64,000 nucleotides of DNA from Chrysophaeum taylorii (taxonomy: Eukaryota > Sar > Pelagophyceae > Pelagomonadales > Pelagomonadaceae). Positions 6,476 to 60,553 of this stretch are shown in pieces. The stretch covers positions 1-64,000 of the forward strand of contig JAQMWT010000417.1 of the NCBI GenBank assembly GCA_029834535.1, given 5' to 3'. The first letter of the stretch is position 1, and every line of letters begins with the position of its first letter. Made by a program: the position numbers and the translations under genes. The notes beneath the pieces were generated by a model. It was not told the DNA's origin. It saw nothing but the letters and a program-made list of their open reading frames with translations, and searched no databases.

Positions 6476-6559
6476 CGCAGGAGTTGTTTGTGGTCGCGTG
6501 GCGGGAGAACGGCCATCCTCGTCCAGTGATCCCACCAAGGGCACGGACGCGATCGGCGA

Positions 6560-29831: not shown

Positions 29832-30198
29832 AACTAACTAACTAACTTCAGACCTCTCCCGAGCATGGGAGCCAGGCCGGACCGACAGGAGCCAGTCCGG
29901 AATCACGGGCCTGCAGACGAGGAGCGCCGAAAGGTCGGTCGGCGGAGAGTGACCATCGAGCTTGTCGCCATGCGACGATGAGACCGCGATGTGACTGACA
30001 ACCAACTCGTCGATAACCTTCCGTCTTCGCCCCCCGGCCATACCCCGTCCCACTGCGAACGTTCCGGCTGCCAACCGGCCCGCCCGGGAGGCGAATAGGT
30101 GCCAACCTACGCCGGGAGGACGGATGCCCTCGCAAGGCTCAGGATTCATGAGGCACCGTCCTCCATCGCAACCGCAATCGGCGATCAGGGTAAGGTAT
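29832..30198 (-). mobile_element. SINE-like element in the integrase of Gypsy copy B
   Basis: A 367-bp insert that interrupts sequence continuous in copies A and C. On the - strand it opens ACCTTACCCTGATCGCCGA, has no coding signal, and ends CATGCTCGGGAGAGGTCTGAAG followed by (TTAG) repeats. It is nearly identical to the elements at 43625-43998 and 58618-58885. Its last 45 bp and TTAG tail match the 3' end of the LINE fragment at 53007-53746. I see no clear target duplication here and no convincing pol III A/B boxes. Confidence 0.8.
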
Positions 30199-35700: not shown

Positions 35701-36955
35701 CGCGGCGCATCCATCCATGGCACATCGGACTTTTCTTCGTGTTTGAACCTCACCTCAGGGTGGCTCTTATTGATCTTTTCACCTTTGACGCGCACATTCG
35801 GCTCGCTCCTTACTTTCGGCTCCTGTTCAGGTTCAGGATCCGGCGGAACGTCCACTTTTTTGATTGTCGGGTCCGCGTCGCGCGGCGCATCCATCCATGG
35901 CACATCGGACTTTTCTTCGTGTTTGAACCTCACCTCAGGGTGGCTCTTATTGATCTTTTCACCTTTGACGCGCACATTCGGATCGCTCATTACTTTCGGC
36001 TCCTGTTCAGGTTCAGGATCCGGCGGAACGTCCACTTTTTTTGATTGTCGGGTCCGCGTCGCGCGGCGCATCCATCCATGGCACATCGAACTTTTCTTCG
36101 TATTTGAACATCACCTCGGGGTGGCTCTTATTGATCTTTTCACCTTGGACGCGCACATTCGGATCGCTCATTACTCTCGGCTCCTGTTCAGGTTCAGGAT
36201 CCGGCGGAACGTCCACTTTTTTTGATTGTCGGGTCCGCGTCGCGCGGCGCATCCATCCATGGCACATCGGACTTTTCTTCGTGTTTGAACCTCACCTCAG
36301 GGTGGCTCTTATTGATCTTTTCACCTTTGACGCGCACATTCGGCTCGCTCCTTACTTTCGGCTCCTGTTCAGGTTCAGGATCCGGCGGAACGTCCACTTT
36401 TTTTGATTGTCGGGTCCGCGTCGCGCGGCGCATCCATCCATGGCACATCGGACTTTTCTTCGTGTTTGAACCTCACCTCAGGGTGGCTCTTATTGATCTT
36501 TTCACCTTTGACGCGCACATTCGGCTCGCTCCTTACTTTCGGCTCCTGTTCAGGTTCAGGATCCGGCGGAACGTCCACTTTTTTTGATTGTCGGGTCCGC
36601 GTCGCGCGGCGCATCCATCCATGGCACATCGAACTTTTCTTCGTATTTGAACCTCACCTCGGGGTGGCTCTTATTGATCTTTCCACCTTTGACGCGCACA
36701 TTCGGCTCGCTCCTTACTTTCGGCTCCTGTTCAGGTTCAGGATCCGGCGGAACGTCCACTTTTTTTGATTGTCGGGTCCGCGTCGCGCGGCGCATCCATC
36801 CATGGCACATCGGACTTTTCTTCGTATTTGAACCTCACCTCGGGGTGGCTCTTATTGATCTTTTCACCTTTGACGCGCACATTCGGCTCGCTCCTTACTT
36901 TCGGCTCCTGTTCAGGTTCAGGATCCGGCGGAACGTCCATTTTTTTTGATTGTCG
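32800..36955 (-). repeat. Satellite-like array: about 23 tandem units of 181 bp inside Gypsy copy B
   Basis: The block GGATCCGGCGGAACGTCCA recurs every 181 bp (three spacings are 180) from 32943 to 36923, giving 23 occurrences. Each unit equals the linker segment between methyltransferase-like domain and reverse transcriptase that is single in copies A and C (VDVPPDPEPEQEPKV...INKSHPEVRFKYEEKFDVPW). Units fall into recognisable variants (MSDPN/KGEK, RSEPN/KGGK, VQGEK/MFKYEE, RFKHEEKS), and these recur out of order, a sign of unequal exchange or block duplication. Because 181 is not a multiple of three, the array is not one continuous coding segment. It ends at a run of 13 G at 36955. Confidence 0.95.
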
Positions 36956-37239
36956 GGGGGGGGGGGGCAGATGAAAAAGCATGAGCCGTCCCCGGCGCAT
37001 CTGTTGGAAGCGGAAGCATAGGGACTTCTGGCGGTTCCCATTTAGTGGGATCCTGGAGATCATCTTTTGACACCCACTTAACGACACGAGTACGCGTATT
37101 TAACAGCGGAATCTGTACGTGACGAAGGGTGGTGTCGGAAATTCGCTAATACTGCTCAAAGGATCGATCTGCCGGGTTCAACGCGGTCGGCAGGACTTCG
37201 CCACTTTGGCGGAAACCTCTGGTCACGGAGTTGTGCAGA

Positions 37240-38080
37240 TCACTGCTAAAATCGCAAGAGTGTCTGGAGGGACGACAGACGCTAAATGTCTGAACGAATC
37301 TGTCTTAGACAAGCAAGCCCACTCATGGTTCAACGGCATCGTGAGCAACTCGGCCGTCATCTCGAGAGTCATTGGCTGAGTGTCCGAGCGATGCGGTCCC
37401 AAACGAAGAAGAACTCGCGTAACGGTGTAAGCCGTATCTGTTGCTTCTCGGGACGAGCCGAGATTATTCAGCTGGAGCAGGTGGCGTTCATGAGCGCAAC
37501 CTAAAGCTGCAGCAAATTTCTGTTGCATATTCGCACATGTCTTCGGAGCCTCTTGCAAGTGCAGTGGGTGACTGGAAACCAACAATCGCACGCGAGAGCT
37601 CATCAAAGTGGGCGTGATATCATGAAAATGGACGACGTACACGTAAGGGTGTAAACGCGCTATATAAGAAATAATGGACGCCTCCTGTTCAATCAGCCGC
37701 ATCAGGAAGCCAGCCATTTTGCACGGCTTCATCGTCCAATTAGTGGCCGTAACTCCCCTGCCAACATCTCTGGATGTCAAGTTGCAGAGTGCTGAATGAA
37801 CGCAGGGTGGAGACGCTACACACACCGACGATGACCATTCCGCTTCAGGCAAATAAGCCTTGATCAATCGGAGGGTCGAGTCATATCGTCCGCAGAGCGT
37901 GTGCTGGACCACAGGTATCTTCGGAAAATTCTTCTGATGAATCTTGTTGGCTGCTGTTAAGGACGACTCGAAACGACGTCCCGCACAACTTATTCGCTCG
38001 TTGCAGTCCTAAAGTACTTCCTCCGGCTCCGCTAAAGAGCATCACGACCTTGCGATACGTGACCGGTACCCAGTGGACTT
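37240..38080 (-). other. C5 cytosine DNA methyltransferase-like domain of Gypsy copy B
   Basis: On the - strand: motif I VVMLFSGAGGSTLGLQRA (about 38055-38000), motif IV ASPPCVHSALC (about 37815-37790), a motif VIII-like YVYVVHFHDITPTLMSSRVR (about 37640-37580) and a motif X-like VVPPDT (about 37270). The order and spacing are those of C5-MTases and agree with copies A and C. It is flanked by the retropepsin-like region on one side and the tandem array on the other. Confidence 0.82.
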
Positions 38081-38849
38081 TTTCAAACCTTCGGCGAATC
38101 TCGCCTTCTGTAACTTCTCGGCATTTCTTTTCCTCCTCGTCGGTTCGTCGGTCGAAATCGTCGTTACCGAGCGATTCTTGACGAGAATTCTTGTTCTTAT
38201 CGGCAGAAGGAAACGCCTTCTGCACCGAGCTCAAAAGCATCGGCTCGGGAGCCGCATCGCCTTGAGTCAGATGGCTACAGATTCGGCTTCGCCATCCTTC
38301 GTTAAATCGTCGACCGTTTCAACATTCAGCTCGTCATCAAAACGAACAATATCGCCCAAAGCGAGAACTTCACCTTGAGTAATCACGGTCGGCACATCCT
38401 GGGTAGAGGAGATCGCCACTCGAGCTGCGAACTTGTCATGATCCTCAGGAGAAGAACGCATTCTATCGACTACCCCAAGTTGCTCGTATCTATAAGACGC
38501 AGCAACGAAAACTTGCCCGGTTTCCATGGGCTCTGAAAGAGCGACTGGCACGCAGTAAGTGCGCCCAGGCTCGACCTTCATCGTGCGCGCAGCATAGGCT
38601 ATCACTTCATAGGCATCGCTGTTCGAACTTCGAGAAGGCGCAACTGTAGGGACTCCCCAAGTCGTCGAAGCTCCCGCTCGTTTCGGCGGTGGACGCTGGA
38701 GGTCTTCAATCTTGCACAAGCGAGCGTATACGCGGTTCTCAACTGTGCTCAGGCTCTTTTGCATCGCATGGTGCTGTTGCCCATAAACCTGAACTACCAC
38801 GGGGTTGCGCTTGTCATAAGTTGTTCTGAACGCCAAAATCGGAGAATCG

Positions 38850-40640
38850 ACTCGTCGATCCTGCACCTTTAACTTCTTGCGCCCATAAGCGACTTGTGTG
38901 CGGAGAAACGCAATGCGATTTCGCGGGTAGTCCACTATGGCTCCCAGCACCCGAATATCGCGCGCTCCCAGCAGAAATAGGTGATTAGTATCGGCCACGA
39001 TGGCAACCACTGGGACTGCCACGTCGTCCGCGAACGCAATTCGCAATGCGACCCATTTGTGGATAGTCGTCTTATTCAATCCTGACCCGTACAGGGTGCG
39101 CTCGACTGGAAGATCGCCTCGGTCAAGGATGATATTATCCTTTGTCAGTTTTTCGACCATCCCACGACAAATATAGGAGACATCAGCCATTCCATCCACG
39201 CCTAAAGTCGTTGCGAACTTCGGCCCGTCTCGTCGTCTGTATATATGACCAACTATGAATGTAAGTGTACCAGGGTCCTGACAACCGATGGTGATGAGGT
39301 CTTGCTCGATCTTGTCCCCATCGCTCGGCGAAAGTGCAGTGTGATGACATCGCAACTGCGGTTTCGCATCGCCCGGCATCTGCATCGTCACCGCTGCCAT
39401 ATCTGGCGTTCCACATCTCGCCTCTGAATCTATATTGGCGCTCGCCGCTTCGGCTGCTTCCTCATTCCCCAGTTTCGCTGGCAACAAATTCTGACACTTC
39501 TCAATCGGAGGCACATATACTTCCTCCTTTATCTCCTCTGATAATTTTCGTTTCTCGTCCATCAAATCGGACATTCCCGTCCACTTCTCCTCCATCGGCG
39601 CCGCTGTGGTCTGCTCTGCTGCGACCAAAACTGTATCGGCTAAAACATCGGCTAAAACAGTTTCGGGGGGGGGGGGGGGCGTAGGAAAAGAAGACGTCGT
39701 CCCCGACGTCAACTCAAAAGGTCTAACGTCATCATCGTGAACTGCCCTGCAAGACATGCACATTGAAGAATGGGGGGACACTGGAACCTGCGGCATGGGT
39801 TCGTCGGTCTCCGAGTCTGAGTCTCCCCAGTAGCGCAGAGAATCCAAAGTTGCATCTGATATTGCTTCCACATACGATGTAGAAGGCCACCGAACGACCC
39901 GAGCGTTGGTGGTACTTTGCTCCTGTTGCAAGCGATGGTTGCTCGTCACAGCGGCATCGGCAGCATCATCGGACACTCGGGCGGGGCGCGCCGTCGGGTA
40001 AAAGACAACTCCCGACGATGGCCGCGCTTCGCGTAGAGATTGGAACGCGAAAGTTGCGCTCGAATGTCCCGAACTATCCTGATATCGGCCTCCGTCATAT
40101 TCGTCATCGCGCTGTCGATGGCGTCTGAGCCGGCGCGAATTGCGACTAGAGCTCCGGCTATGGCGGCGACGGCGGGGGCTCGGGCTTGATGTAGGACTAT
40201 TGGCCTTTTGATCAAGGCTCTTACTTCGGTGTCGGCGCGACGATCGTCTAGAAGGTGATCGTCCGTCTCGCTGTCGTGTAGAAGACGACTTGCTATCTTT
40301 GATACCTCTGACCTCGCTCACCATGGTCGCCATTGTGGTTCCAAGCTCGGCGAGGGCCGTTTGTATTTCATTAGTAGGTTCCAATCCGCGCGTGGCGTGC
40401 GCATTAGATGCATCGTCACGCTTCTCCCAATCGGAACGCGATGTGGGTTGCTTTTTATATTTCCGAATGCGCTTCCACATCGCACAGTGATAACGGTCCG
40501 GATCGCGGTTGCAAACCTCGCGATTTCCGTGTTCATCTTCATCATATGGGTGGACCAGAAGAACCCGCACTCCTTGCACGTCTTCTTGCACCACCAAGAA
40601 GGATCTCGCAAGATCAGCGGAACCGTATTCCCAGACGGTT
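38850..40640 (-). other. Arg/Ser-rich and retropepsin-like region of Gypsy copy B
   Basis: In element order: a Cys/His pattern (CNRDPDRYHCAMWKR) that may be a degenerate zinc knuckle, an Arg/Ser-rich segment (RSPSRRSSRRHRSKS), an acidic spacer, then LGVDGMADVSYI, where a retropepsin has its D-(S/T)-G loop, followed by VPVVAIVADTNHLFLLGARD and GAIVDYPRNRIAFLR, the usual second half of Gypsy proteases. The matching part of copy C is split by a LINE. Confidence 0.6.
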
Positions 40641-42547
40641 TATCCGCATCTTGCTTAGCTTGTTGATCGGAAGTCATAGCTCGACCTCCCCGCCCTCGCG
40701 GCGATTTATTTGGTTTCGGATTGGAAGGTCCTTGGTCCTTCTCCTCCTCCATCAACTTTAGAAATTCGTTCTCGAGTCGCGTAATAAGCGCCACCATCGA
40801 CTTAAAAGTCAAGTAACTATCCGGGTGTCCGCTCCTCATAGTCCGCACACGGGTCCGTAACTCCTTGGACGCCAAACCACTGATAAGCTGGTCGAGGATA
40901 TCAACGTCATCCATCGTGCGGCTGGACTCGGTACAAAAGGCTAAAGCCTCACTCTGAAATTTGGTACAATACGTTTGTACGTGCCGCTCCCCAGACTTCT
41001 TCGGAACTGAAGACTGAGTGACCTTCCGCAGCTTATCGAGCAACTCCTGCTGCGAGCTCGGAGGTCGGCAAGTCGATCTAAAACAATCCAGAATATTATC
41101 ACAGTAAGCCTTGTTGAGACGACGGATGCGCCGAATCGAGGCTCCATGCTCTTCGTCGTCAGCATCCAATTTCCAATAAAATGTCGGACCGTGCGGTAGC
41201 TCATCGCCGAGCTCCTCGTATTTCCACAAATGCCCCTCAAAACTTGGTGCAACGGTATCGCGTAAGTGCACCGGTAATAGGTAACGTAATTTCTCGACCG
41301 AGTAATGGTCATCTGCCAAAGTATGCATCACCGCTGCCGAATCCAGATTGAAATGCCGTTGATCTCGGCCGTCGATGACGAGTTTGAAGTTGTCAGGCTT
41401 CAAACTGGAAGTGGGGCGACGAGATCGGCTCAAGTTGGCCTTCTCGAAGGCGTCCGCACCGTCTGCGATAATCCCCGTGATAATCCCCGTAAAAATTTCG
41501 TACCTTCATCTTCAGTTTCCGCCCTACCCTCAGTCTCCGTATCGACTCGGGGCGGAGGCTCGTCCCCCGTTTCAGTGCTCCTTTCCGGTTCAGTCCGCCT
41601 CACGGGCGTTTCCGGTTCGGGTCGACTCACGGGTCGTTCGCGGCTACTCTCACGACGTGTACGTTCGGCTAACAATTCATCTCGCTCACGACGAAATCGT
41701 TCAGCCTCCTCACGTAGAGTCCTCGTTGTTTCGATCTCTTGCTGCAATGCGTCATTCAGCATGTCAACTTCTCGTCGAGCCGCTTCTTCTTTCGCTTCAG
41801 CCCTTTCACGGGCAAATCGCTCAGCTAATCGTTCATTTTCGCGACGTCTCCGCTCGAGGTCTTCACGAAGTCGACTTCGGGCTACGGATCCGCGCTCAAT
41901 CGCAACACGCTCGCCACGGTCCGGGGTCGTTGGACTCAACGGCGAAGAAATTGCGGTATCCGGAGGCACGTCAGGGGGCAAGTCAGCAACGTCGACTGCC
42001 TCGGCCTCTCTTAATTCACCTTCCTCGCGGCCTATCTCAGGGGCGGCGGGAAGCACTGGAGGAGATTCGTCCTCACGCACGTCTGCGTCTGTATCCATAT
42101 TGTTTCAATGTCGATGAGGAATCTCGAAACACGTCCGGATTCGATCACTCGAAGTAATGCACGTTGATCACAACAACGCTGTCTGTCGCTGTAAAAACAG
42201 CACTCACGGAATTCCGATCCGCTGGCAATCCAAAAATGCCCGTGGGCAATCCAAAAATGCCCGTGGGTAGCGATCCCACTCGCTAACAGCTTCCGCCGTT
42301 CAGCTACACCAAAATCAATTCCCGGGTGAATGCGCTGTGATTTCCAACTCGCACGCGTGTTCGTCGTCTCTCGGGACGCACGAACAAAACAAAGTCCGCG
42401 TATATTCTCAACGCAAACCGGTCCACTGGAACTCCGCGTGCTTGATCAGGGCACACGTGCAAATCGAGACCACGTAATACAATACGAACGGCGGCACTCG
42501 TTCGTCGGCGACCGATATAGTCGCACAATCTCATATCCTCCGCCACG

Positions 42548-42869
42548 TATGGCGGCACAGAAAAACCACTCCCGACCCCCGGGTGACAAAGGGGGTACTC
42601 ACCGACTCGTCCTAGACCTCACTGAACGAGGAAAACGCGGACTCGGGGTCGGATATGCTCGCCACACACCTTGCTCACGCTCACCAAGCCCCTCAACAAG
42701 ATGGAGAGATGGTATATGATAGCAAGAATGCTACAAGAATGCTGCAAGAATGCTTCTCTCGAGGGAGAGGTATGATGTCACTAGGAAAGTAGGAAAAGGC
42801 GTCCCGTTGAACGGGCATCAAGCCTCGAGAAGGGAGGGTAAGCCTTAGCGGTCAGGAGTTGCCGCCACA
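42548..42869 (-). repeat. 5' LTR of Gypsy copy B
   Basis: 322 bp, the same length as the LTR at 28490-28811, with about 9 differences and no indels; eight of the differences are transitions. Its outer end is followed by the target duplication TCCGC at 42870-42874. Confidence 0.92.
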
Positions 42870-42874
42870 TCCGC

Positions 42875-44375: not shown

Positions 44376-44455
44376 GAGCACGGATTGTTTGTCTGATCCT
44401 AAACCCTGGGTTCAAACAAACTGACAAACAACATCTGCCAATTGGTAGTAAAGAC

Positions 44456-45475: not shown

Positions 45476-45870
45476 ACAACCAGACCTCCTACCCTCCTAC
45501 CCCACAAACCCACCCACATCCTTCATGCCCCCCCCACACACACCCCTCTTAGCTGTCGACATTTAAAGACAAACAAACAGACAAACAAACCCACCCACAT
45601 CCTTCATGCCCCCCACACACACACCCCTCTTAGCAGTCGACATTTAAAGACAAACAAACAGACAAACAAACCCACCCACATCCTTCATGCCCCCCACACA
45701 CACACCCCTCTTAGCAGTCGACATTTAAAGACAAACAAACAGACAAACAGACAAACAGACAAACAGACAAACAGACAAACAGACAAACAGACAAACAGAC
45801 AAACAGACAAACAGACAAACAGACAAACAGACAAACAGACAAACATCTGCCGATTAGCAGTAAGGATTTG
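45476..45870. repeat. Triplicated C-rich unit and (ACAAACAG)n microsatellite
   Basis: About three tandem units of 75-90 bp carry CCCACCCACATCCTTCATGCC, CACACACCCCTCTTAGC and GTCGACATTTAAAGACAAAC. They are followed by about 14 copies of the 8-mer GACAAACA (45732-45845), then CATCTGCCGATTAGCAGTAAGGA. Similar units flank H2 and H3, so this is the other end of the Helitron-derived composite, expanded. Frames such as SVCLFVCL read from it are not proteins. Confidence 0.85.
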
Positions 45871-48800
45871 TTGATAGGTCGATCCCAATTGATATAGAGG
45901 CAAGTATCGACTTGTGAGCGTTCGAACTCATGTTGTCGAAGAAATGAGTCGAGCTTAATGTTCCATAACAAAGCTGGCTGTTTGAGGCCATAGAGAGCCT
46001 TGACGAGTCGGAGAGCGAGCTTCGACTCTGGATGGTTCTTCTGTCTCTGCTGGATAAGATTTGACGAGACAATTATTCCTCGAGGAAAGTCGATCCATAC
46101 TGGGCGATCGAGTGCCGATTGGATGAATGCCTGAGGAATGTCCGCGTGCGCGACCGGGAGCTTGTGCTTCACAGCGATGGCGAGCAGTAGCCGGTTGGTA
46201 GCGAGCATTGCGGTTGGGGAGGATGTGGCATAAAAGTCAATGCCTACGCGTGCCAAGAAACCTCGGGCGACTAGACGAGCTTTATTGCGGTCTGGAGTGC
46301 CGTCAGCAAAATACTTGATCTTCAGCACGAGCTTCGTCGAGATAGACGAACGGTCTGGCGGTAAAGGCTCAAGCTTGAAGACACCATTGGAGCACAATCC
46401 CTCAATTTCCTTGCGAATCGAAGCGATATGCTTTAACTTATCTTCTTCGCTGAGTCCTTTGAGTTCGACAATCTTTCCAGGCTCATAGACAATATCTTCA
46501 GCGGTCACAAGCTGCAACACGACGTGATCGATGTGCTGCAAATCATAGTCCATGACTTCTTGTAGAATATCTTGATTCGGATCACTTTTGACTTAGGAAG
46601 AGAGGTGTCCGAGTTCGCCAGAATCATGCATGAAGGCATGCCTGTGACGAGAAGCTAGATGGTAGTGTTGATGCGCGGAGATGTCCCACAGAAGAGAGGA
46701 ACCCATACAACAGAATACTTGATTCCATTGACGCGCATAGTACTCTGCCGGTGACATTTCGTCGTGGCACATGTAGTTCTCGAGAACAGAATTGTCGTTA
46801 TCAAGGTGGTCAACCAACACAGACGAGTGGTATGGTTTCCTGGGGAAGTCAACGTACAAGAGTTCCGCGTCGGTTTCTCTCTGCAAATCCAGTGCGGTGC
46901 CGCCCATGATACCATAGTCTCGTGTGGTACTTGCTAGGAGACATCCTTTTGGGACATCGTTAGGCGGCTTAGCTTTTCTTCGAATGTTGAGAGCAGAGGC
47001 GATGCTGGCGGCGTGGCCCTGGTGCAGAGCGCTGACACTGATGAGGAACATCAATGTGCTGGACATGTTGGCTGTGGCGTGAGCCGTGGATTGCTCCTGC
47101 TGGTATTTCCAGTTGCGACCATACTCTGAGGCGATAATGCGTCTGGTGAAGAGTTTTCCATTGTCAACACGTTTCACGATGTAGAGTTGATCCTTAGGGA
47201 TGCGGAATCCACGTTCGTCATTGAGATCTGCTTTGAGCTTATCGCTCTGGTTGCGATGCACGAGAACTGGAGTGAAACCTGAATCGTCGAGAACAACCTC
47301 TAGGCGATCTTTTCGTTTGGGCATCGGAATGCTACCATCCGGCGGAGGTGGCCGGTTGAGGAACGAAAAATCCTGTTCAGGTGTCGCGTCGCTGACGGGA
47401 CTTGAATCAGCAGCGGGAGTTGGATTCGGTTCTTTGTGTTCGTCGTCATCGCTAGATTTGTCATCGTGCTCGTCTTCATGAGTCTCGCCCTCATTTTTTG
47501 ATTTCTGTCTAACTTCCGGCATTTGCTGTTCGCTTATAGCTGGTAGCGGGTCCTCTTGTCGTGCCTTTGTTGGGATCTGTGCGAGTGCATTGATCCGTTC
47601 GATCTCCTTGTTACAGTTGACTGGCATGTCTGCGTCGACATGAAAGTCGTTTGAGGTGACGATTTTCCCATATCGCGCTTGATGTACAAGCAGGATAGAG
47701 CTGTGAACATCACGGATAAATCGGTCTGTTCCGGGGAGGTTCGGGTGATAGTTGTTACTATGAAAGTAAGAGGCAGAGATGCTGGGGGGTTCCAGCTTGT
47801 GACTTTGAGGGTAGACAAAAGTGACAGGTTCGCCAAAGGGGAGAAGCTTCAAGAGCGGTGCCGTGGGTGACATGATACGCCGGGGAACGGTGCATGGCAT
47901 GTGTGTGCGCGAGGGCAGTCCATGAGAGCGCTAGTTGTCGGCTTGGATCTTATGCAGGAGAGCAAATGGGTGATAATACTCAGCGGCAATAGACTTACCT
48001 TCGATGCGTACACTGCGAAGGTTGAGGAGGCGAACTACAGTGCCTCGGGTGTTTTCCTTGATAATGTTTTCAGCAAAGTTCCGCTGGTGGAGGTGGCGAC
48101 CAAGGATTTGGAATTGGAGACCAAGCTGCACCTTGAGAGGGTGGAAGGCTTCAGAGCGAAAAGTTGAGAATACGCCAGAGGATATGATCTTCACATGGAC
48201 ATCGAATTCGACTTTGATTACATTGACCACATAGAGGATGCCGGCCAGAACATCTTGTGCGTCTAAGTCCCGTAGGAAATAAACCCATTTGTGTGCTGAG
48301 ATGGTACACACGAAGTGCATGATACAGCGAAATCCGCCGTAGCACTTGCGGATGCTCGGGTATGACACATCCATGTGGAGGTGTTGGCCAGGAGCATAGG
48401 CCGGTTCATCCTGTGACCAGGAATTGTTTTTGTGACTGTAGCTTACATGCGATTGGCAGCGCTTGCATTCACTGCAGTCTTGCAGATACCGATCATCACC
48501 TGGGCGGAGATTCGTTACATTAGCGGCAATCGTGCGGCGAAGAATCTCTGGTTGCTGGTGGTGTATTCGGTGCCAGCGAGTGACCAAAAGCACTCTTTTG
48601 GCGTCCTGAGTGGTGCCGGGCTGGTGCAAGGGAGGCAGTGCGGCAGTCGAAGCGCTGGAGGGGCTGGGTCGCTTGTCGACTCGGATTTTAGCAACGGTTG
48701 CCTCGGCAAGAAGCGTCTCGAGGTTTGTCGATTTGCTTGGTTTGCGGATCGCATCATGGTGAGCATCTGCAACGGCATTGAAGAGGGAGGTGAGGTTCAG

Positions 48801-50135
48801 GTCTTCCTCTGCTAAGAGACGGCTGGAGATGGCCGAGAAGAATTCTGCAACCTGGTTGATGTCTCCGGGGCTGGGGATGCCATGGCACATCGTGGCCCAT
48901 TCGACGTGAAAAAGGTTCGCGTGGTGGTGCGATTCGTGGAATGCGAGGACAGCGCTGTACTTTGCCTGCAACATGTGGTGCGGGACGGCGTTGGCCAGTG
49001 CCTTGAACGCGAAGTACGGCGGGTGCTGTTTGAACAGGCGGAGCAGTTCCGGGTCCGAGTGGTGTCCAAATTTTGCGATTTCGTTGAGGGTCGCGTAACG
49101 AATGTGGTCTGGAGAGATCAGCAGCAAGGCATTGGAGTAGCTCGTGTTGGTGGGGTACGAGCCTGTGACCGAGCAGCACTTGGTGCTCTTCTGAAGCGTG
49201 TCTCCTATGTGGCCGACATAGTCCGCGTATGTGGGACGTGCTTTGGACATGAGGAGTCCCTTGGGGTCATCGAGAGCAATTCGCCCTTGTGAGACGATCG
49301 CGGCAAAGCCAGGATGCGAAGGATTCATATAGTGGACCCAAGTGGACGGGCGCGAACAGCTTTGAGCGGCGGCCAAGGAGGTGGTGTAAGCGACGACCAG
49401 AAAGGCGGTGCCCTTGGGAACATCCAGGGAAAAGGCGTGCGTTGGGGAGAAGACTGCGGGTTCGTCGGAACACAGTCCAATATCTGAGGGGGCCTGGAAT
49501 GGAGGGTTAGGGAGGCGCGCGGGAAGTAGCCACAATCGATGGCAGTAGCGGCGGTGCTGGTGATGGCTCCATCCAAATGGTAAGCACATTGGGACTCTGA
49601 GGCATGAAAACAGCGGATGGTGTTCCAAGCGGCGAGAGTGGGGTGTTGCGACAAATGGTTGTGCAGGAGCGTGAAAACCAGTAGGTTGGAAATGGACGCC
49701 ATTGTGGCGTAGGGGGTGCCGTCGGCATCTAGGCTGAGATCCGTGAAGGGCTTGGTGAGACGTGCGAGCAGTTGGCAGATGCGGGCATTCTCGGAAATCG
49801 AGAGTTTCGAGGCGTTGGCGGGCTTGTAGGAGTAGGTAGCCTTGTGCTGGTAGTAGTCCAATGTGGAGCGGGGCACGGTACCTTGAAGGGCGGGTTTGGC
49901 GATCCATAGATCGTCAGGGATGGTGTGACTGGGGTCCAGAAGAGGAACCATGCTCGGAGGCGAGGTTAACCAAGGAGAGGCGGTTTTCTCGAGGTTGTAG
50001 CCTGTGAGCGGGTGCCGGGCATACACAGCGAGATAGCGTGTCTTGCTGATGACGTCACCAAAGGCAGAGGCATTGTAGACGCCGGAGTGGCGGAAGTAGC
50101 CTAAGCGCTGATAACCTTTGGCGAGTTGAGCATAC
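45871..50135 (-). mobile_element. Ty1/Copia retrotransposon, 5' part (gag to reverse transcriptase)
   Basis: A fossil Copia element on the - strand. From its 5' side: gag-like region (about 50130-48600, from EYAQLAKGYQRLGYF), pre-integrase with CSECKRCQSH, integrase core (HMDVSYPSIRKCYGGFRC..., about 48400-47950), a variable acidic/proline linker with SSPVSDATPEQDFSF, then reverse transcriptase (RKEIEGLCSNGVFKLEPLP; KARLVARGF; AHADIPQAFIQ; ALYGLKQ; 46550-45880). The body stops at Helitron/microsatellite sequence, and its 3' LTR is at 44166-44345. The 5' end abuts Gypsy copy C near 50135 with no 5' LTR visible. It is broken at a handful of places. Confidence 0.85.
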
Positions 50136-53006
50136 TCGTGGTGAGTTCGGGGGTTGGGACCGACTTGCCCCCTGAAGCGCCTCCAGAAACAGCAATTTTT
50201 TCGCCGTTGAGTCCAACGACCCCGGACCGTGGCGAGCGCACTACGATTGAGCGCGGATCCGTGACTCGACGTCGACTTCGTGAAGACCTCGAGCGGAGAC
50301 GACGCGAAAACGAACGACTAGCTGAGCAATTTGCCCGTGAAAGGGCTGAAGCTAAGGAAGAAGCGGCTCGACAAGAGCTCAATGTGCTGAATGAAGCGTT
50401 GCGGCAAGAGCTCGAGACAACGAGGACCTTACGTGAGAGGTTGAACGATTTCGTCGTGAGCGAGACGAACTAGCAGCCGAACGTATGCCTCGTGAGATTC
50501 AGCCGTGAACGACCCGTGAGTCGACCCGAACCGGAAACACCCGCGAGGCGGTCTGAACCGGAAAGGAGCACTGAAACGGGGGATGAACCTCCCCCCCGAG
50601 CCGATACGGAGACTGAGGGTAGGGCGGAAACGGAAGATGAAGGTGCGGAATTATCACGGGGATTATCGCAGACGTTTGCGGGCGCCTTCGAGAAGGCCAA
50701 CTTGGGCCGATTCCAGTTTGAAAGCTGACAACTTCAAACTCGTCATCGAAGGCCGAGATCAACGGCAGTTTGATCTGGATTCGGCAGCGGTGATGCATAC
50801 TTTGGCAGACGACCATTACTCGGTCGAGAAATTACGCTATTTATTACCGGTGCATTTACGCGATACCGTTGCACCAATTTTCGATGAGCATTTGCGGAAG
50901 TACGAGGAGCTCTGCGATGAGCTGCCGCACGGTCCGTCATTTGATTTGAAATTGGATGCGGACGACGAAGAGCATGGAGCCGCGATTCGGCGCCTCCGTC
51001 GTCTCAACAAAACTTACTGTGATAGAGTTATGGATTATTCTAGATCGACTTGCCGACCTCCGAGCACACAGCAGGAGCTACTCGATAAGCTGCGTAAGGT
51101 CACTCAGACTTCGGTTCCGAAAAAGAGTGGTGAGCGACATGTGCAAACTTATTGCACCAAGTTCCAGAACGAGACGCTAGCCTTTTGTACCGAGTCCAGC
51201 CGCACGATGGGTGACGCTGATATCATCGACCAGCTTATTAGCGGTTTGGCGTCCAAGGACTTACGGACCCGTGTGCGGACTATGAGGAGCGGTCACCCGG
51301 ATAGCTACGTGACTTTTACGTCGACGGTGGCGCTCATTACGAGACTCGAGAACGACTTTCGGAGGTTGATGGAGGAGTAAAAGGACCAGGGACCCTCCAA
51401 TCCGAAACCGAATAAACCGCCGCGATGGCGGGGAGGTCGAGCCATGGCCTCCGATCAACAAGCTAAACAAGATTCGGATAAACCGTCTGGAAATACGGTT
51501 CCGCTGATCTTACGAGATCCGTTTTGGTGGAGTAAGAAGACCTGCAAGGAGTGCGGATACTTCTGGTCCACTCGCGATGAAGATGAACACGGGAGTCGCG
51601 TGTTTTGCAACCGCGATCCGGACCGTTATCACTGTGCGATGTGGAAGCGCATTCGGAAACACAAGAAACAGCCCATATCGCGTTCCGATTGGGAGAAGCG
51701 TGACGATGCATCTAATGCGCACGCTACGCGCGGATCGGAACCTCCTACTGATATTCAAACAGCCCTCACCGAGCTTGGAACCACAATGGCGACCACGGTG
51801 AGCAGGTCAGAAGCATCAAAGATAGCAAGTCGCCTTCTACACGACAGCGAGACGGACGGTCGCCTTCTAGACGATCGTCGCGCCAACGCCGAAGTAAGAG
51901 CCCGGATCACAAGGCCAATAGTCCTACATCCAGTCCGAGCCCCCGCCGTCGCCGCAATGGCCGGAGTTATAGTCGCAATTCGCGCCGGCGACGTCATCGG
52001 CCGCGCGATGACGAATATGACGGAGGCCGATATCAGGACAGTTCGGGACATTCGAGCGCAACCTTCGCGTTCCAATCTCTATGCGAAGCGCAGCCATCGT
52101 CGGGAGTTGTCTTTTACCCGACGGCGCGCCCCGCCCGAGTCTCCGATGATGTTGCCGATGCCGCTGCGACGGGCAGCCATCGCTTGCAACAGGAGCAAAC
52201 TACCACCGACGCTCGGATCGTTCGGTGGCCTTCTACATCGTATGTGGAAGCAATATCAGATGAAGCTTTGGATTCTCCGCGCTACTGGGAAGACTCAGAC
52301 TCGGAGACCGACGAACCCGCGCCGCAGGTTCCAGTGTTCCCCCATTCGTCAATGTGCATGTCGTGCAGGGAAGTTCACGACGACGACGTTAGACCCTTCG
52401 AGTTGACGTCGGGGACGACGTCTTCTTTTCCTACGCCCCCCCCGAAACGGTTTTAGCCGATACAGTTTTGGTCGCAGCAGAGCAGACAACAGCGGCGCCG
52501 ATGGAGGAGAAGTGGACGGGAATGTCCGATTTGATGGACGAGAAATTGCGAGAATCGTCCGAGGAAACAAAGGAGGAAGTATACCCCCGATTGAGAAGCA
52601 TCAGAGTTTGTTGCCAGCGAAACTTGGGAATCAGGAAGCAGCCGAAGCGCCGAACCCACCCAAGGTTGCGATCGAAAAAGACAGAGAGCCACCAGACAAA
52701 GAGACCGCGGCGAACGCCAATATAGGTTAGGAGGTGAGGCGCGGGACGCCAGATATGGCAGCGGTGACGATGCAGATGCCGGGCGATGCGAAACCGGAGG
52801 CACGATGCCATCATACTGCTTTCGCCGCGCGATGGGGAAAAGATCGAGCAAGACCTCATCGCCATCGGCTGTTTGGACCCTGGCACACTTACGTTCATAG
52901 TTGGACATACTTACAGACGACGAGACGGGCCGAAAGTCGCAACGACTTTAGGCGTTGATGGATTGAGTGACGTCGCCTATGTTTGTCGTGGGATGGTCGA
53001 CAAACT

Positions 53007-53746
53007 AACTAACTAACTAACTTCGGACCTCTCACGGGCATGGGAGCCAGGCTGGGCCGGCAGTAGCCGGTCCAGGATCACAGAGCAAAAATCACACAGC
53101 TGGGGTAGAGGCGAGGGATGAAAAGCCGTTGATGGCGGACCGCCACTGCGCGCGGTCTTGTGCGAGGTCGTGCCACGAGTTGAAGGGGATGTCGCATTTC
53201 CGGTGTGCCTTGGCGAGCGACCTCCCGTACGTCATCTGCGGAGCCCCCGGTGGGCGCTTGGAGCGGACCCATGACGAGAGCATCTTGCGAGGGAGTCGGG
53301 AGAAGGGCATGCGGGCGACGTGACCGGCCCAGCGGAGCTGGCGGCGCGTGACGTAGACGTCGATGGACTCGAGGCCGAGGCGCCGCAGCAGGATCTCCGT
53401 TGAGATGTGGTGGGACCAGGTGTGTTTCCGGGTCACACGACACATGACGCGGGCGCACTGCGCGTGAAAACACCGCAGCCGGCGGAGCAGGACCTCGGTG
53501 AGGCACCACGATTCCGCACCGTGAAGGAGGATGGCCAGGACGAGCGAGACATAGACGAGGCGCTTGGCGCGAGCAGAGACGGACTTCGAGGCGAAGATGC
53601 AGTCCCGCAAGGCACCGAAGGCCTGAGACGCCTTCTTGATCCGCGCGTCGACGTCTGCGTCGTCGCGGCTGTCGCGCGAGAGGACCGAGCCGAGGTACTT
53701 AAACTGGTCGACGACCGGTATGAAGCGGCCGCGCCCGAGCTCGATG
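53007..53746 (-). mobile_element. 5'-truncated LINE in Gypsy copy C
   Basis: A 740-bp insert flanked by AAACT at 53002-53006 and 53747-53751. The - strand encodes the C-terminal end of a LINE reverse transcriptase protein: DQFKYLGSVLSRD, ARIKKASQAFGALRD, LAILLHGAESWCLTE, RCFHAQCARVMCR, RRQLRWAGHVARMPFSRLPR. This is the segment after the catalytic core in many non-LTR elements, including the frequent RLRWxGHVxRM motif. The frame reads to a stop near 53092, then a short 3' region and a (TTAG)n tail (CTAA repeats at 53007-53022 on the + strand). Truncation at the 5' side is typical of target-primed insertion. The 3' end matches the SINE-like family. Confidence 0.88.
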
Positions 53747-54889
53747 AAACTGGCGAAGGCTAATCTAATCCTCGACCGAGGCGATCTCCCAGTCGAGCGC
53801 ACCCTGTACGGGTCGGGATTGAATAAGACGACTATCCACAAATGGGTCGCATTGCGAATTGCGCTCGCGGACGACGTGGCAGTCCCAGTGGGTGCCATCG
53901 TGGCCGATACCAATCACCTATTTCTGCTGGGAGCGCGCGATATTCGGGTGCTGGGAGCCATAGTGGACTACCCGCGAAATCGCACTGCGTTTCTCCGCAC
54001 ACAAGTCGCTTACGGGCGCAAGAAGTTAAAGGTGAAGGATCGACGAGTCGATTCTCCGATATTGACGTTCAGAACAACTTATGACGAGCGCAACCCCGTG
54101 GTAGTTCAGGTTTATGGGCAACAGCAGCATGCGATGCAAAAGTGCCTGAGCACAGCTGAGGACCGCGTTTACGCTCGCCTGTGCAAGATTGAAGACCTTC
54201 AGCGTCCACCGCCGAAACGAGTGGCAGCTTCGACGACTTGGGGAGTCCCGACAGTTGCGCCTTCTCAAAGCTCGAACAGCGATGCCCATGAAGTGGTAGC
54301 CTGTGCCGCGCGCACGATGAAGGTCGAGCCTGGGCGCACTTACTGCGTGCCAGTCACTCTTTCAGAGCCCATGGAAACCGGGCAGGTTTTCGTTGCTACG
54401 TCTTCTGGATACGAGCAACTCGGGGTAGTCGATGGAATGTGTTCTTCTCCGGAGGATCACGACAAGTTCGCCGCTCGAGTGGCGATCTCCTCTACCCAGG
54501 ATGTGCCGACCGTGATTACTCAAGGTGAAGTTCTCGCTTTGGGAGATATTGTTTGTTTTGATGACGAGCTGAATGTTTGGACGGTCGACGAGTTAACGAA
54601 GGAACGAGTTAACGAAGGACTGTGAAGCCGAATATGACAAGGCCAGCCTGTCGTTTACTGTTTCGGTCGCAAGCCATCTGACTCAAGGCGATGCGGCTCC
54701 CGAACCGATGCTTTTGAGCTCGGTGCAAAAGGCGTCTCCTTCTGCTGATAAGGATAGGAGTTCTCGTCAAGAATCGCTCGGTAACGATGCTTTCGACCGA
54801 CGAACCGACGAGGAGGAAAAGAAGTGCCGAGAAGTTACAGAAGGCGAGATTCGCCGAAGATTTGAAAGGTCCAATGGCTGCCGATCACG

Positions 54890-55740
54890 TATCGCAAGGT
54901 TGTGATGCTATTTAGCGGCGCCGGAGGCAGTACTTTAGGGCTGCAACGAGCGAATGAGTTGTGCGGGGCGTCGTTTCGAGTCATCCTTGCTCTTGACTCT
55001 TCAACAGCTGCCAACAAGATTCATCAGAAGAATTTTCCGAGGATATCTGTGGTTCAGCACACGCTCCGCGGACGATATGACACGACCCTCCGATGGATCA
55101 AGGCTTATTTGCCTGAAGCGGAATGGTCATCGTCGATGTGTATCGCGTCTCCACCCTGCGTTCATTCAGCACTCTGCAATTTGACGTCCAGAGATGTTTG
55201 CAAGGGAGTTACGGCCACTAATAGGACGATGAAGCTGTATAAAATGGCTGGATTCATGATGTGGCTGATTGAACAGGGGGCGTCCATTATTTATTTACAG
55301 CGCGCTTACACCCTTACGTGTACGTCGTCAATTTTCATGATATCACGCCCACTTTGATGAGCTCTCGCGTACGGTTGTTGGTCTCCAGTCACCCACTGCA
55401 CCTGCAAGAGGCTCCGAAGACATGTGCGAACATGCAACAGAAATTTGCTGCAGCATTAGGTTACGCTGATGAACGCCACCTGCCCCAGCTGAATAATCTA
55501 GGCTCGTCCCGAGATGCAACAGATACGGCTTACACCATTACGCGAGTTCCTCTTCGCTTGGGACCGCACCGCTCGGACACTCAGCCTTTGACTCTCAAGA
55601 TGACGGCAGAGTTGCTCACGATGCCGCTGGACCATGATTGGGCTGACCTGTCTAAGACAGATTCGTTTAAGCACTTAGCGTCTCTCGTCCCTCCAGATAC
55701 TCCTGCGATTTTAGCAGTCGATCTGCACAACTCCGTGACC
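54890..55740 (+). other. C5 cytosine DNA methyltransferase-like domain of Gypsy copy C (best copy)
   Basis: This is the most readable of the three. Motif I VVMLFSGAGGSTLGLQRA (54896-54950) is followed by LALDSSTAANKIHQKNFP and VVQHTL, matching the usual D-x-x-x-x-A...N(F) and GDI-type motifs II-III. Motif IV is IASPPCVHSALC (PPC at about 55150). YVYVVNFHDITPTLMSSRVR (55316-55375) matches the V-L-N-A-x-D-Y-G-V-P-Q-x-R-x-R region of motif VIII. LTLKMTAELLTMPLDHDWAD and LVPPDTPAILA (55590-55720) match motifs IX-X (L-T-x-R-E...FP and VPP). About 280 residues span motif I to X. The protein family transfers methyl from AdoMet to cytosine C5. Confidence 0.85.
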
Positions 55741-58617
55741 AGAGGTTTCCGCCAAAGTGGCGAAGTCCTGCCGACCGCGTTGAGCCCAACAGATCGATCC
55801 TCTGAGCAGTATTTGCGAATTGCCGACACCACCGTTCGTCACGTACAGGTTCCGCTGTTGAATACGCGTACTCGTGTCGTTAAGTGGGTGTCAGAAGATG
55901 ATCTCCAGGATCCCGCCAAATGGAAACCGCCAGAAGTACCTGTGCTTCTGCTTCCAACAGATGCGCCGGGGACGGCTCATGCTTCTTCTGCTGCCTCCCC
56001 CCGACAATCAAAAGTGGACGTTCCGCCGGATCCTGAACCTGACCAGGAGCCGAAAGTAAGGAACGAGCCGAATGTGCGCGTCAAAGGTGAAAAGATCAAT
56101 AAGAGCCACCCTGAGGTGAGGTTCAAATACGAAGAAAGTCCGATGTGCCATGGAAGGATGCGCCGCGCGACGCGGACGGTGCACCGTTACCGCAAACTCC
56201 GGAGCACGTTAAGGACAACGATGCCATGAAAGTTGAAACTCCGACGAAAGAAGAAGTCGAGAAGGTTGTTCGAGAACTGGGAATCCCCGACAACCCGCAT
56301 CTGGATGAGGATGCGAAGATGATGTTGAGCCACTGCGTGCAATATGCGTGGGCCTTTTTTGATCCGATTATGAGACCCGTGGACTCGCCGCCGGTTTCTC
56401 TACGATTTAAAGACGCAAACCCACGACCGACTGAGATGACGCCTTATAGGTTGACGCCAGCAAAGCTCGAGTGTCTCAGAAAGCAGATCACCGAGTGGTG
56501 TCGCGATGGAGTCATCCGACCGGCGAACTCTCCGTGGGGATTCCCTGTACTGATGCTGCCTAAGAAGGGAGCAGAGGCCGGGACGTCGAATGCTTTTCGT
56601 GCTGCAGTTGACTTGCGTCAGCTCAATGATCAGTTGGTCAATGACAGTTGGCCGAATATTCGTCAAGATGATGCTTTGGCTTTTCTTGCCATGCGCCGTT
56701 GGCGGACGTGCATTGATATTCGATGGGGTTATCATAACCTACGTTTGGACGCCGCCGCTCAGGACGCCGTTACGATGGTTAGTCCACTTGGAGCCCATAG
56801 TTTCTTGCGCTTGCCTCTGGGAGTGAAAACAGCAGGAGCTCTCTTCTGTAAGCAGATGGCTAGCGATTTGTCCACATGGATGTATAAGGACTTGGTCGCG
56901 TTTGTCGACGATATTATGATGGGATCGGATGAACTCCACCGTCATTTACAAGTCTTGATTGAAGTGCTGTGCCATTTAGCGCAGCGAGGATATAGTGGAC
57001 GAACTTCTAAGTTCCACCTCCTCAAAGATGAAATCGAGTTTCTGGGACACATTTCGACTCCGGAAGGCTTGAAGCCGAATCCCAAGACGTTAGAAGCGTT
57101 GCAGCAGATGCCGATTCCCGGTACGTTGCCGAACACGTCCCCGAAGACCCAGATTCGATCCTTCATCGGCATGAGCAACTACTGCCGCCGATATGTGAAG
57201 AATTATTCGAAGATTGTGGAGCCGCTGAGGCGATTGTGTTTTTTGGGTGTTAAGTTTGAGTGGACGCCTGAGTGCCAAAAGGCATGGGACACGATCATCG
57301 AAGCTTTGGTGGACTCTCGCGGAGTTTATCATCCTGACTACGATCTTCCTTTTCAGATCCGCTCGGATGCTTCCAAGGATGGTCTGGGCGCGTATCTTTT
57401 CAGCTCGTGGAAGTCAAGGACGAAACCGGCAAGGTGACACGAGAGGAACGAGTGATTGAGTATTGGAGCCGAGCTGTGCCGAAAGAGATGCGGAACTATG
57501 AGCCCCGCCGGCTAGAGCTACTGGCAGTTATTCTTTCTCTTGAGCATTTTCGCTCTTATATTGAAGGTCACAAGACGATCCTTGAGACGGATCATCGCAA
57601 TTTGACGTTTTTACGAAAGGCGAAGCACTCGTCTGGGCAGTTGGCTCGATGGGCGATGCGGCTCGCCAATTTCGATCCTGAATTGGGTTACAAACCAGGG
57701 AAGTCGCCGGGAATGAGTATCCCTGACTGTCTCTCTCGCAATCCTATCGATCATGTCATCGAGACGGATGAGTTTGGTGAACCCTTGAACCACGCGTACC
57801 TAGTGTGCCAAGAACTTCCTCGACCTGTCGATGATAAAGGAGTACCTTTACCTGGGTGCCATGTCATTCTGTCGTTTGTTACGACTGAGTTGCCAGTGGA
57901 GGAAGAAGAAGATGGTCGCGACGATCCGGTGCAATTGGCCACGTCTCACGCTACGAGACAACGTCAGAAGCAACCTAGTATTTTCCGTGATGCCGATGAT
58001 TACCAAGAGTACATCGACAAGATTCCGGATAATTTGACTTTGGAAGAGATAGCCAAGAGCAGATCACTGATGCTACTTGCGAGGACATTGGTTATCGCAA
58101 GGCTCAAGGCCATTCTCTTCGTCGGTACGGAGCCAATTATCGCTATCAAGTGGTGAAAGGAGTCCTCTACCGTGCCGCACCCGACTTGCACCCGAGGATA
58201 GTCGCACCCCGGACTTTACGGACGCGTATCATCCGACTGTACCATGACACACCTCTCAATGGTGGTCACATGGGTCGTCAAAGTACAGTGCAGTCGATAC
58301 TTGAACGTTTTTGGTGTCCCAACATGTATAATGAGGTGGGTGCTTATATTGCTGGTTGTATAGTGTGCAAGAAAGCTCGCACGCCTGAACCAATGAGAGC
58401 AGGTCTTCTTCAGCAACCTGTGTGTGTGTATGATGGTGATTGCGCCGTCCTGTGTATGGGTTTGTTCGGACCTTTGCCTAGTGCCGGTCCCGAGACGCAT
58501 CTGATCATCTTTTTTGATCCATTTTCTCATTCCTTGATTCTCGACGTACTGCACCACAAGACTGCTGAGTCAATCCTCGAGTCTTTTGTCGCGAATATAT
58601 TACTCCAAGGTTATCTA

Positions 58618-58885
58618 TATTCGCCTCCCGGGCGGGCCGGTTGGCAGCCGGAACGTTCGCAGTGGGACGGGGTATGGCCGGGGGGCGAAGACGGAAGGTT
58701 ATCGACGAGTTGGTTGTCAGTCACATCGCGGTCTCATCGTCGCATGGCGACAAGCTTGATGGTCACTCTCCGCCGACTGACCTTTCGGCGCTCCTCGTCT
58801 ACAGGCCCGTGATTCCGGACTGGCTCCTGTCGGTCCGGCCTGGCTCCCATGCTCGGGAGAGGTCTGAAGTTAGTTTGTTAGTTAG
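58618..58885 (+). mobile_element. SINE-like element, 5'-truncated, in the integrase of Gypsy copy C
   Basis: A 268-bp insert flanked by TTATCTA at 58611-58617 and 58886-58892 (the second copy overlaps the TTAG tail by two bases). It lacks about the first 100 bp of the full-length copy at 43625 and ends GAGGTCTGAAGTTAGTTTGTTAGTTAG. Confidence 0.88.
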
Positions 58886-60063
58886 TTATCTACCTCCGAG
58901 GATTCGTACCGACAACGGAAAAGAGTTCGTCAACAAATTGATGGAAGAGTTTTGTCATCTCTTCAATGTTCGGTATAGTACCACGATTCCGTATCATGCT
59001 CAGGCTAATCCTGCGGAAAGGGTCAACCGCTTTATCAAGGCTTTCCTCCGTGCATGTCTTCAAGACCGCAAGATCACGGACTGGCCCGAGTTCGCGGAGT
59101 ACATTGCTTTTTGCTACAATCGTAAGTTCATTCCGGGAACTCAGATCTCACCCTTCATGCTCCGTCTCAACCTGCAGCCTATATTGCCGACCGATTATAC
59201 GATCATGGATCTTGATGTCCGCCGCGCGCCGAAAACTCGCTCCGATATTGTGGCAGAGACTCGCGAGAGGTCGAAATTCTACACCGCTACGGTGAATGAA
59301 GCTCGCGAGAAGGCTCTTCGTAAACAACGTCTCGCTTACAATGCGGACCATGTCGATGTGGAGTATGAAGAAGGATCACATGTTCTGCTCTACATCCCTT
59401 TTCTTCAGAACAAGCTTCGACCGGAATGGCGCGGTCCATTCGTTATTCTGGAACGCTTGTCTCCGGTCACTTACAGGATTGAGTCTCTTGATTCTCCTCC
59501 TGAACGCCATCGTGTTCATGTCAGTCAGATCACCCCTGTGATGGTTTCTCCAGTGGTCGATCGAGTCGTGCCAAAACCCAAGGAGACCTTCCGGGATGAT
59601 TTCAAGCGCGTTGAGTTCGTTGTCTTTCGGATCCCCGATAGCAAACGGTCCGATTGGCGAAAGAAGATTTACGTGGCTGAAGTTTAGGAGCCCTATGATT
59701 TGTGAATGATCGAGTCGCTCTGCATTTTATGCCGATCTCGGTCCCCATGACAAGGTTTCTTATTACAAGCCTACTTCACATCTCTCTACTCGCAAGCTCA
59801 AGCCGGAATACAAGGACGTGGACGGTCGCAGTTTCACGGACAAGTCCAAGGTCAACAACAGCACCACTCCTTGTGTCACCGACTTCGCTCCGCATGAGAT
59901 CGATGTGTTGATTCCTAAGTTCACTTTGCGTAGTGGACGCGTCCCCGAACCTGTTGTCGAGCGCGCCTACAAGAAGATTCGTTCCCGAGATGCTCATTCA
60001 GCCAAGGCTCGTAATTCTCGTCGAGCTCGCAGATGGCAGCTCGTATTCTCGCCAGGGGAGTCC

Positions 60064-60361
60064 TGTGGCGGCAACTCCTGACCGCTAAGGCTTACCCCCC
60101 CCTTCTCTAGGCTTGATAACCGTTCAACAGGACGGCTTTTCTTACTTTCCTAGTGACGTCATATCGCTCCCTCGAGAGAAGCGCATCTTGCTATCATAAA
60201 CCAACTCTCCATCCTCAAGTTGAGAGGCTTGGTGACAAGGTGTGTGGCGAGCATAACCGACCCCGAGTCCGTGTTTGCCTCGTTCAGTGAGGTCTAGGGC
60301 GAGTCGGTGAGTACCCCCTTTGTCACCCGGGGGTCGGGAGTGTTTTTTCTGTGCCGCCATA
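60064..60361 (+). repeat. 3' LTR of Gypsy copy C
   Basis: Begins TGTGGCGGCAACTCC after the purine tract CCAGGGGAGTCC and ends GTGCCGCCATA; 298 bp, shorter than the 322-bp LTRs of copy B mainly through fewer AAGAATGC repeats. It contains the bZIP-type palindrome TGACGTCA near 60156. Confidence 0.88.
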
Positions 60362-60553
60362 GGCTCTCCGTATCTTTGTGTGGGGGAATCCGCTTGAGCC
60401 ACGTCTTCGACGGCACAATATGTTCTAAACCGAACACCAACTTCGGGCCGCGGAAAGCACGCGATCGGAGCAGCGCTACCTACGCCTGTCTTTGCGTCTA
60501 CGGAAACTTCACGACCTCATCTGTCGGTCAGGCCAAAGTTCGGCGGGCAGACG

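Follow-up and report, generated by a model that had tools for sequence, protein, structure and literature searches.

DNA methyltransferases (DNMTs) are known from LTR Gypsy elements of Klebsormidium and from LINE and DIRS elements of Symbiodinium, and retrotransposon DNMTs methylate CG de novo (PMC5890265). KnitGypsy-Dnmt3 of Klebsormidium nitens (de Mendoza et al. 2018, PMC5890265) shares with the family described here that it is a Gypsy LTR element with a cytosine-C5 methyltransferase (C5-MTase) in its Pol ORF, present in multiple intronless copies. Purifying selection is evident in both, with Ka/Ks < 0.2 in KnitGypsy-Dnmt3 (PMC5890265); in the present family the values are 0.055 for distant copies and 0.182 for near ones. 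The repeats of KnitGypsy-Dnmt3 are DIRS-like according to a figure legend, whereas those here are ordinary direct LTRs where seen; its enzyme groups with Dnmt3 and keeps the key residues (PMC5890265), while the present domain, compared by description, is very divergent with a motif VI other than ENV. SymbioDIRS-Dnmt3 and SymbioLINE-Dnmt of Symbiodinium are also high-copy retrotransposons with a C5-MTase, but they are DIRS and LINE elements, unlike the LTR Gypsy and Copia elements considered here; the Symbiodinium Copia superfamily is described as being without any DNMT domain (PMC5890265). The hosts differ as well, Klebsormidium nitens for KnitGypsy-Dnmt3 and an alga with a red-lineage plastid in the present case. 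The latter identification follows from a form ID-like rbcL (488 aa, on contig C697) together with its best PDB matches, which we take to be diatom Rubiscos.

A further Ty3/Gypsy element with an acquired domain, of a different fold, of chemistry opposite to that of the methyltransferase here and in a plant host, is found in orchids. It shares the combination of Gypsy with a captured nucleic-acid-modification domain, in that case an m6A RNA demethylase (PMC9289625). When a Copia-borne C5-MTase was sought in the open-access literature none was found. The first-pass annotation of this DNA held that methyltransferase capture has been reported in algae but is rare; the Gypsy precedent bears out the report (PMC5890265), but rarity does not describe the present genome, in which the Gypsy family is abundant and a Copia family apparently has an MTase as well. 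A Gypsy-borne C5-MTase is a known kind of which this family is a divergent variant, and the Copia carrier is the more surprising part; that family seems from its sequence to carry a separate C5-MTase.

The domain in copy C and across the Gypsy family

The window, i.e. the whole stretch of 64,000 nucleotides that was analyzed, represents contig C417 of a 70.8-Mb assembly and holds three broken copies of a Ty3/Gypsy element (A, B and C; Table 1), all of which have the order protease-like region (PR-like), MTase, reverse transcriptase (RT), RNase H and integrase (IN). In copy C, on the + strand, C5-MTase motifs I, II, IV, VIII, IX and X lie in order within the interval from the PR-like region to RT. 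The first-pass annotation had placed motifs in canonical order at 54890..55740, between the protease and RT regions of a Ty3/Gypsy element; all of them were found where it had put them. A six-frame scan of the window for motif I followed by PPC, uninterrupted by a stop, gives a single occurrence, that of copy C, compared with 0 in 200 triplet-shuffled windows. Frame 54866-55354 matches PF00145 at 22.9 bits (cut-off 22, E 6.6e-5), a narrow pass that takes in only positions 2-71 of the 324 in the profile, and therefore the match over motifs I-X that the first-pass annotation had proposed as a check was obtained for motifs I-IV but not beyond. The second frame (55273-56226) is without any Pfam match. 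Two reading frames that overlap at about 55294-55354 share the MTase of copy C between them, with a frameshift near 55.3 kb that the first-pass annotation did not mention, so this copy is not intact.

Table 1. Positions in the window of the three Gypsy copies, the motifs of the copy C MTase domain, and the Copia-type element
Feature	Position	Strand	Basis
Copy A	502..6611	+	97.7% identical to L029 over 502-6554; 3' LTR about 6282-6611
Copy A MTase pieces	1303-2412	+	similarity to L029
Copy B	28483..42870	-	LTRs 28483-28812 and 42537-42870, 96.1% identical
Copy B MTase pieces	37032-38129	-	similarity search
Ty1/Copia reverse transcriptase	45711..46592	-	RVT_2 E 5.8e-29
Copia frame: MTase end, spacer, integrase-like region	47931..49913	-	Cys motif at about 48485; no Pfam match
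Copia MTase region after ENV Glu, in pieces; motifs I-VI missing	49066..50167	-	tblastn with P0002, 90%, 87% and 63% identity
Copy C protease-like region, split by insert	52954..54445	+	DGLS motif 52954-52983; remainder from 53747, tblastn 61% identity
Copy C MTase part 1 (motifs I, II, IV, candidate VI)	54866..55354	+	PF00145
Motif I LFSGAGGSTLGLQRA, SAM binding	54908-54952	+	motif position
Motif II ALDSSTAANKIHQKNFP	54989-55039	+	motif position
Motif IV SPPC, predicted catalytic Cys	55148-55159	+	motif position
Candidate motif VI LIEQ	55265-55276	+	Glu at Cys+38; register uncertain
Copy C MTase part 2, other frame (motifs VIII, IX, X, C-terminal end)	55294..55929	+	tblastn with L029 domain, 73% identity
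Motif VIII FHDITPTLMSSRVRLLVS	55333-55386	+	motif position
Motif IX-like LLTMPLDHDW	55612-55641	+	motif position
Motif X LVPPDT	55684-55701	+	motif position
Copy C reverse transcriptase	56439..57158	+	RVT_1 E 1e-13; 95% identity to L029 RT
Copy C RNase H, two frames	57249..57697	+	RT_RNaseH E 2e-21
Copy C integrase, two frames	58207..59222	+	Integrase_H2C2 E 1.1e-16; rve E 3e-5, 24.6 bits, below cut-off 32.6
Copy C 3' LTR	60064..60362	+	84% identity to copy B LTR

The protease-like region of copy C has no Pfam match, and the DGLS motif is presumed to be that of a protease. A minus-strand open frame (53092-53913) is seemingly inserted in this region, between DGLS and the remainder; it also has no Pfam match and by eye resembles the C-terminal part of a LINE-type reverse transcriptase. 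A 5' LTR of copy C was looked for in the window and not found. Copy B holds a tandem array (32783-37060) of about 23 units of 181 bp, the unit corresponding to the MTase-RT linker of the element; as 181 bp is not a multiple of 3, the array is apparently a minisatellite that expanded out of a coding part of the retrotransposon.

Across the genome the copy C frame matches at least 150 places (849 candidates at first look). In the 150 places listed, a list biased to good copies, a stop was read inside the matched stretch (up to 163 aa) in 14. Twenty longer stretches, chosen for long frames, were fetched; two are uninterrupted (L029 and L030, both on contig C5), each with one continuous open frame (3067 and 3063 aa, respectively) that runs from PR-like through MTase, RT and RNase H to IN, and Pfam identifies RVT_1, RT_RNaseH, Integrase_H2C2 and rve in both. 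Whole-frame scans place PF00145 ahead of RT at 18.9 bits (3067 aa) and 18.4 bits (3063 aa), both below the cut-off, and the 2393-aa frame of L033 is above it at 25.3 bits. The best PDB match of the Gypsy Pol is Ty3 Gag-Pol (E 6.8e-66); RT-RNase H precedes integrase and the RT is Ty3-like, the arrangement by which Ty3/Gypsy is recognized. The protease is inferred from the motifs DGMA and LLGGRD alone, with no Pfam match, and in L029 DGMA is found at residue 1055, ahead of motif I of the MTase at residue 1451. A Gag domain was looked for in the Gypsy family and none was found. LTR pairs occur in three of the 20 longer stretches (L031, 92.4%; L045, 92.0%; L047, 122 nt at 87%), and in the remaining 17 the LTRs may have been cut off by the stretch ends; where both ends are seen, in the longer stretches and in copy B, the LTRs are direct and of ordinary type. 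Protein database searches returned no relative of P0001 residues 1400-1800 at E 0.001 among 3293 candidates, or of alignment A1 at E 0.01 among the best 8000 candidates, and viral contigs searched with alignment A1 and with the host Dnmt2-like protein also gave no relatives. The protein database may contain few algal genomes, so these searches are no proof that the family is unique.

To characterize the domain itself, 24 loci in which it is uninterrupted and near full length (23 distinct proteins) were used; the duplicates L041 and L044 and copies with stops, frameshifts or partial matches were left out. Each of the 24 gives a PF00145 match at E <= 0.1 (1.7e-6 for the best of them), and 23 match TIGR00675 dcm at the same limit (best E 0.0011; L029 scores 18 bits against a cut-off of 100.65). 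Nine of the 11 domains with scores seen pass the PF00145 cut-off, L045 (20.9) and L048 (21.5) being just below, and in these 11 the match stops at profile position 52 of 324. Motif I (LFSGAGGSTLGLQRA) is invariant in the 24 domains save for the L and S after GAGG, both nearly invariant, and FSGAGG (motif I FxGxGG) is present in every one. Alignment by hhalign with nine canonical C5-MTases (eight from phage and plasmid records and one host Dnmt2-like gene) gives E 2.9e-6 and a probability of 88% over motifs I-IV. At a lower posterior cut-off the alignment covers 254 columns including motifs IX-X, and scores 50.1, a value to be set beside the 22.0 that is the highest of 100 column shuffles; the region after motif IV alone is not significant against the canonical enzymes (hhalign E 0.059). 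Structure models of the broken window-copy pieces gave no usable fold (mean pLDDT 35.9 and 33.3). Taken at the level of sequence, the Gypsy domain is well supported as a C5-MTase-derived part of Ty3/Gypsy Pol; it is about 310-370 aa long and lies between the protease-like region and the reverse transcriptase.

Comparison of copies shows that the domain is under selection. Median dN/dS of distant pairs is 0.055 for MTase (156 pairs), 0.022 for RT (36), 0.032 for RNase H (16) and 0.035 for IN (1), and it is higher in the PR-like segment, which for this purpose begins just past the DGMA motif (0.157, 211 pairs), and in the linker (0.198, 48 pairs); distant-pair dS is mostly 1.5-2.4, near saturation, and open segments only were used, so the ratios may be lowered. 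Near pairs give 0.182 for MTase, 0.117 for RT, 0.284 for PR-like and 0.611 for the N-terminal segment in the Gag position (6 pairs, 4 copies). The MTase value of 0.055 indicates that selection keeps the domain. Using one uninterrupted piece per locus, MTase distances correlate with those of PR (r 0.91, 23 loci), RT (0.73, 14) and IN (0.98, 9), correlations that were matched by 0, 0 and 6 of 1000 permutations, respectively. The MTase domain is inherited together with the element and retained. The view that a C5-MTase-derived domain is built into Ty3/Gypsy Pol is thus upheld by the PF00145 matches in 24 of 24 domains, the 3067- and 3063-aa frames, the Ty3-like Pol, purifying selection and the tracking distances.

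Catalytic residues, methylation trace and possible activity

All 40 readings, taken from the loci and the window, have the motif IV cysteine (Cys 114); the motif reads PCV, not PCQ. The glutamate of LIEQ (E152) is present in 39 of the same 40 and the next glutamate (E154) in 37, and the arginine pair of motif VIII (R184/R186) in all 24 domains. The Gypsy motif VI is not ENV, the Asp of motif III is replaced by His, and GN of motif X by AS. The distance from Cys to E152 is 38 residues, compared with 38-44 in the canonical nine (exactly 38 in four of them), and the distance from Glu to Arg is 32 residues as against 41-44. An hhalign comparison with the host Dnmt2-like protein places the ENV of that protein within a gap of 13 residues, so that its Glu is unmatched; an ungapped reading of the same alignment puts SY[VI] at the ENV place. 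Loss of motif VI by replacement of ENV with SYV was the first reading of these data, and was set aside when spacing and the likely helix/strand order favoured LIEQ, the Dnmt2-like alignment keeping some ambiguity. The LIEQ Glu is likely but not certain to be the catalytic Glu of motif VI, because that alignment leaves ENV unmatched.

The interpretation we favour, and hold to be rather probable, is that this Ty3/Gypsy polyprotein carries a C5-MTase-derived domain that is translated in Pol and methylates the element's own nucleic acid before integration. The domain would be made as part of Pol, be released, or packaged into the particle alongside RT and IN, bind SAM, and methylate cytosines most likely in the nascent cDNA, and the methyl mark would be transient or not maintained once the element is integrated.

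That last feature of the proposal is included because the inserted copies carry no deamination scar. The observed/expected ratio of CpG is 1.21-1.24 in the window Gypsy copies, measured over approximate spans, 1.29-1.33 in L029, L030, L031 and L033, and 1.17-1.19 in L017 and L045; in the host-gene loci it is 1.26 (L001) and 1.46 (L002), and in the Copia-family loci L003 and L004 it is lower, at 1.05 with TpG/CpA at 1.14. The over-representation of CpG in the window and in loci L001-L004 and L029-L031 would be unusual if the genome were heavily CpG-methylated. Among 12 related Gypsy copies, private C>T changes per site-copy were counted in three contexts (CG, 77 of 16879; CHG, 45 of 8941; CHH, 120 of 23420), with 54, 22 and 66 private C>A/G changes in the same order; no C>T excess exists in these 12 copies at CG relative to non-CG (77/16879 versus 165/32361; ratio 0.89, 95% CI 0.68-1.17). 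A trace of long-term methylation is absent from the Gypsy copies in every context, which counts against stable methylation of inserted copies. The suggestion that the element could mark its own copies consequently found no backing, given neither CpG depletion nor a C-to-T excess at CpG. The missing scar is compatible with methylation that is transient, whether on cDNA or on RNA, and a scar might be masked by repair; the lower CpG of the Copia-family loci leaves room for methylation there.

The domain might instead be a pseudo-methyltransferase that has kept SAM and nucleic-acid binding, lost methyl transfer, and serves Pol as a binding or folding module. This we judge unlikely, though with enough in its favour to be taken seriously: the missing scar would fit it, as would the replacement of ENV and its fall into the 13-residue gap of the Dnmt2-like alignment, and the Pfam and PDB profiles recognize the SAM-binding end only. 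Set against these points is the retention of Cys (40/40), of the LIEQ Glu at Cys+38 (39/40) and of the Arg pair (24/24); moreover, taking LIEQ as motif VI needs a shortening of just ~10 residues between VI and VIII (32 versus 41-44), which by reading lies in a loop. We consider it improbable that the domain, like Dnmt2, methylates cytosines in RNA, be it the primer tRNA or the genomic RNA of the element; if RNA were its target, the lack of a scar in the DNA would be explained. Profile search of the PDB returned two Dnmt2/tRNA-methyltransferase chains (E 0.24 and 0.26, motifs I-II only), its sole C5-MTase matches, plus one unrelated chain, and of 10 single proteins compared the host Dnmt2-like protein was second (31.0) to a phage enzyme (31.8), but these Dnmt2 scores are weak and come mostly from the SAM-binding end. 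A further alternative, that the motifs arose by chance in a Gypsy spacer of the ordinary kind, is helped by the fact that the N-terminal part alone reaches a significant profile match, and that narrowly. We regard it as refuted by the PF00145 matches (E <= 0.1) of all 24 domains, the motif pair in 0 of 200 shuffles, the hhalign score of 50.1 against a shuffle maximum of 22.0, and dN/dS of 0.055.

A second MTase-carrying family, most likely Ty1/Copia

A search of the genome with PF00145 found 57 places. Two are host-gene-like and match almost the entire profile, L001 (contig C634; profile 1-319) and L002 (contig C621; a 2086-aa frame); by eye they are Dnmt2-like and Dnmt5-like, respectively, and are probable host C5-MTase genes. 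Six of the other 55 places (L003-L008) were examined. Their common region has PCQ, ENV (ENA in P0004), motif VIII-like residues and an altered motif I, AGGLHQEGF, and aligns with the canonical set over motifs II-VIII (hhalign E 9.8e-12). A protease-like DGGAS motif lies upstream of the MTase in P0003 and P0004, in P0003 at 228 residues before motif I. Median dN/dS of this MTase core is 0.132 (6 copies); neighbouring segments are similar (0.151 and 0.173), so the MTase of the second family is not singled out by selection.

A truncated copy of this family is present in the window (45711-50167, minus strand), ending at 50167 just past the ENV Glu and adjoining Gypsy copy C; its MTase pieces (49066..50167) alone have no Pfam match. 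An integrase-like region (residues 482-593), whose best PDB match is Ty1 integrase (7z0h_W, E 0.029, not significant alone), precedes the RVT_2 reverse transcriptase in this one copy, which is the Ty1/Copia order. Independently, L007 has an MTase followed by an integrase-like motif, in several frames. Since the window copy joins an integrase-like region to RVT_2 and L007 joins MTase to an integrase-like motif, the second MTase-carrying family is most likely Ty1/Copia. Two features of the surrounding DNA were also observed: a ACAGACAA microsatellite and 81-bp repeats interrupt the Copia RT (45504-45866), and inverted repeat pairs of 489 nt (97%) and 386 nt (95%) lie 25 kb apart (18745-19605 versus 44454-45295), beside the Copia element.

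No profile similarity was detected between the Gypsy MTase and the Copia-family MTase (hhalign E 0.13); both alignments are shallow, so the two may still share an origin. We put at about even chances the reading in which Gypsy and Copia each captured a C5-MTase independently, with the domain fixed in the position next after the PR-like motif. As part of this joint reading, and just as evenly balanced, the two would have diverged in opposite ways, Gypsy keeping motif I with a non-ENV motif VI and Copia keeping PCQ and ENV with an altered motif I. If true, this would be the first Copia element known to carry a C5-MTase, and the acquisition would be convergent, which would suggest that an element gains a selective advantage when its particle contains a packaged cytosine methyltransferase.

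Retrotransposons are usually the targets of DNA methylation, which raises the question of what elements that encode a methyltransferase gain from it. The Gypsy MTase is under selection not far from that on RT, and with Gypsy and Copia carriers in one genome it would be testable there whether cDNA, RNA or the inserted copy is methylated.
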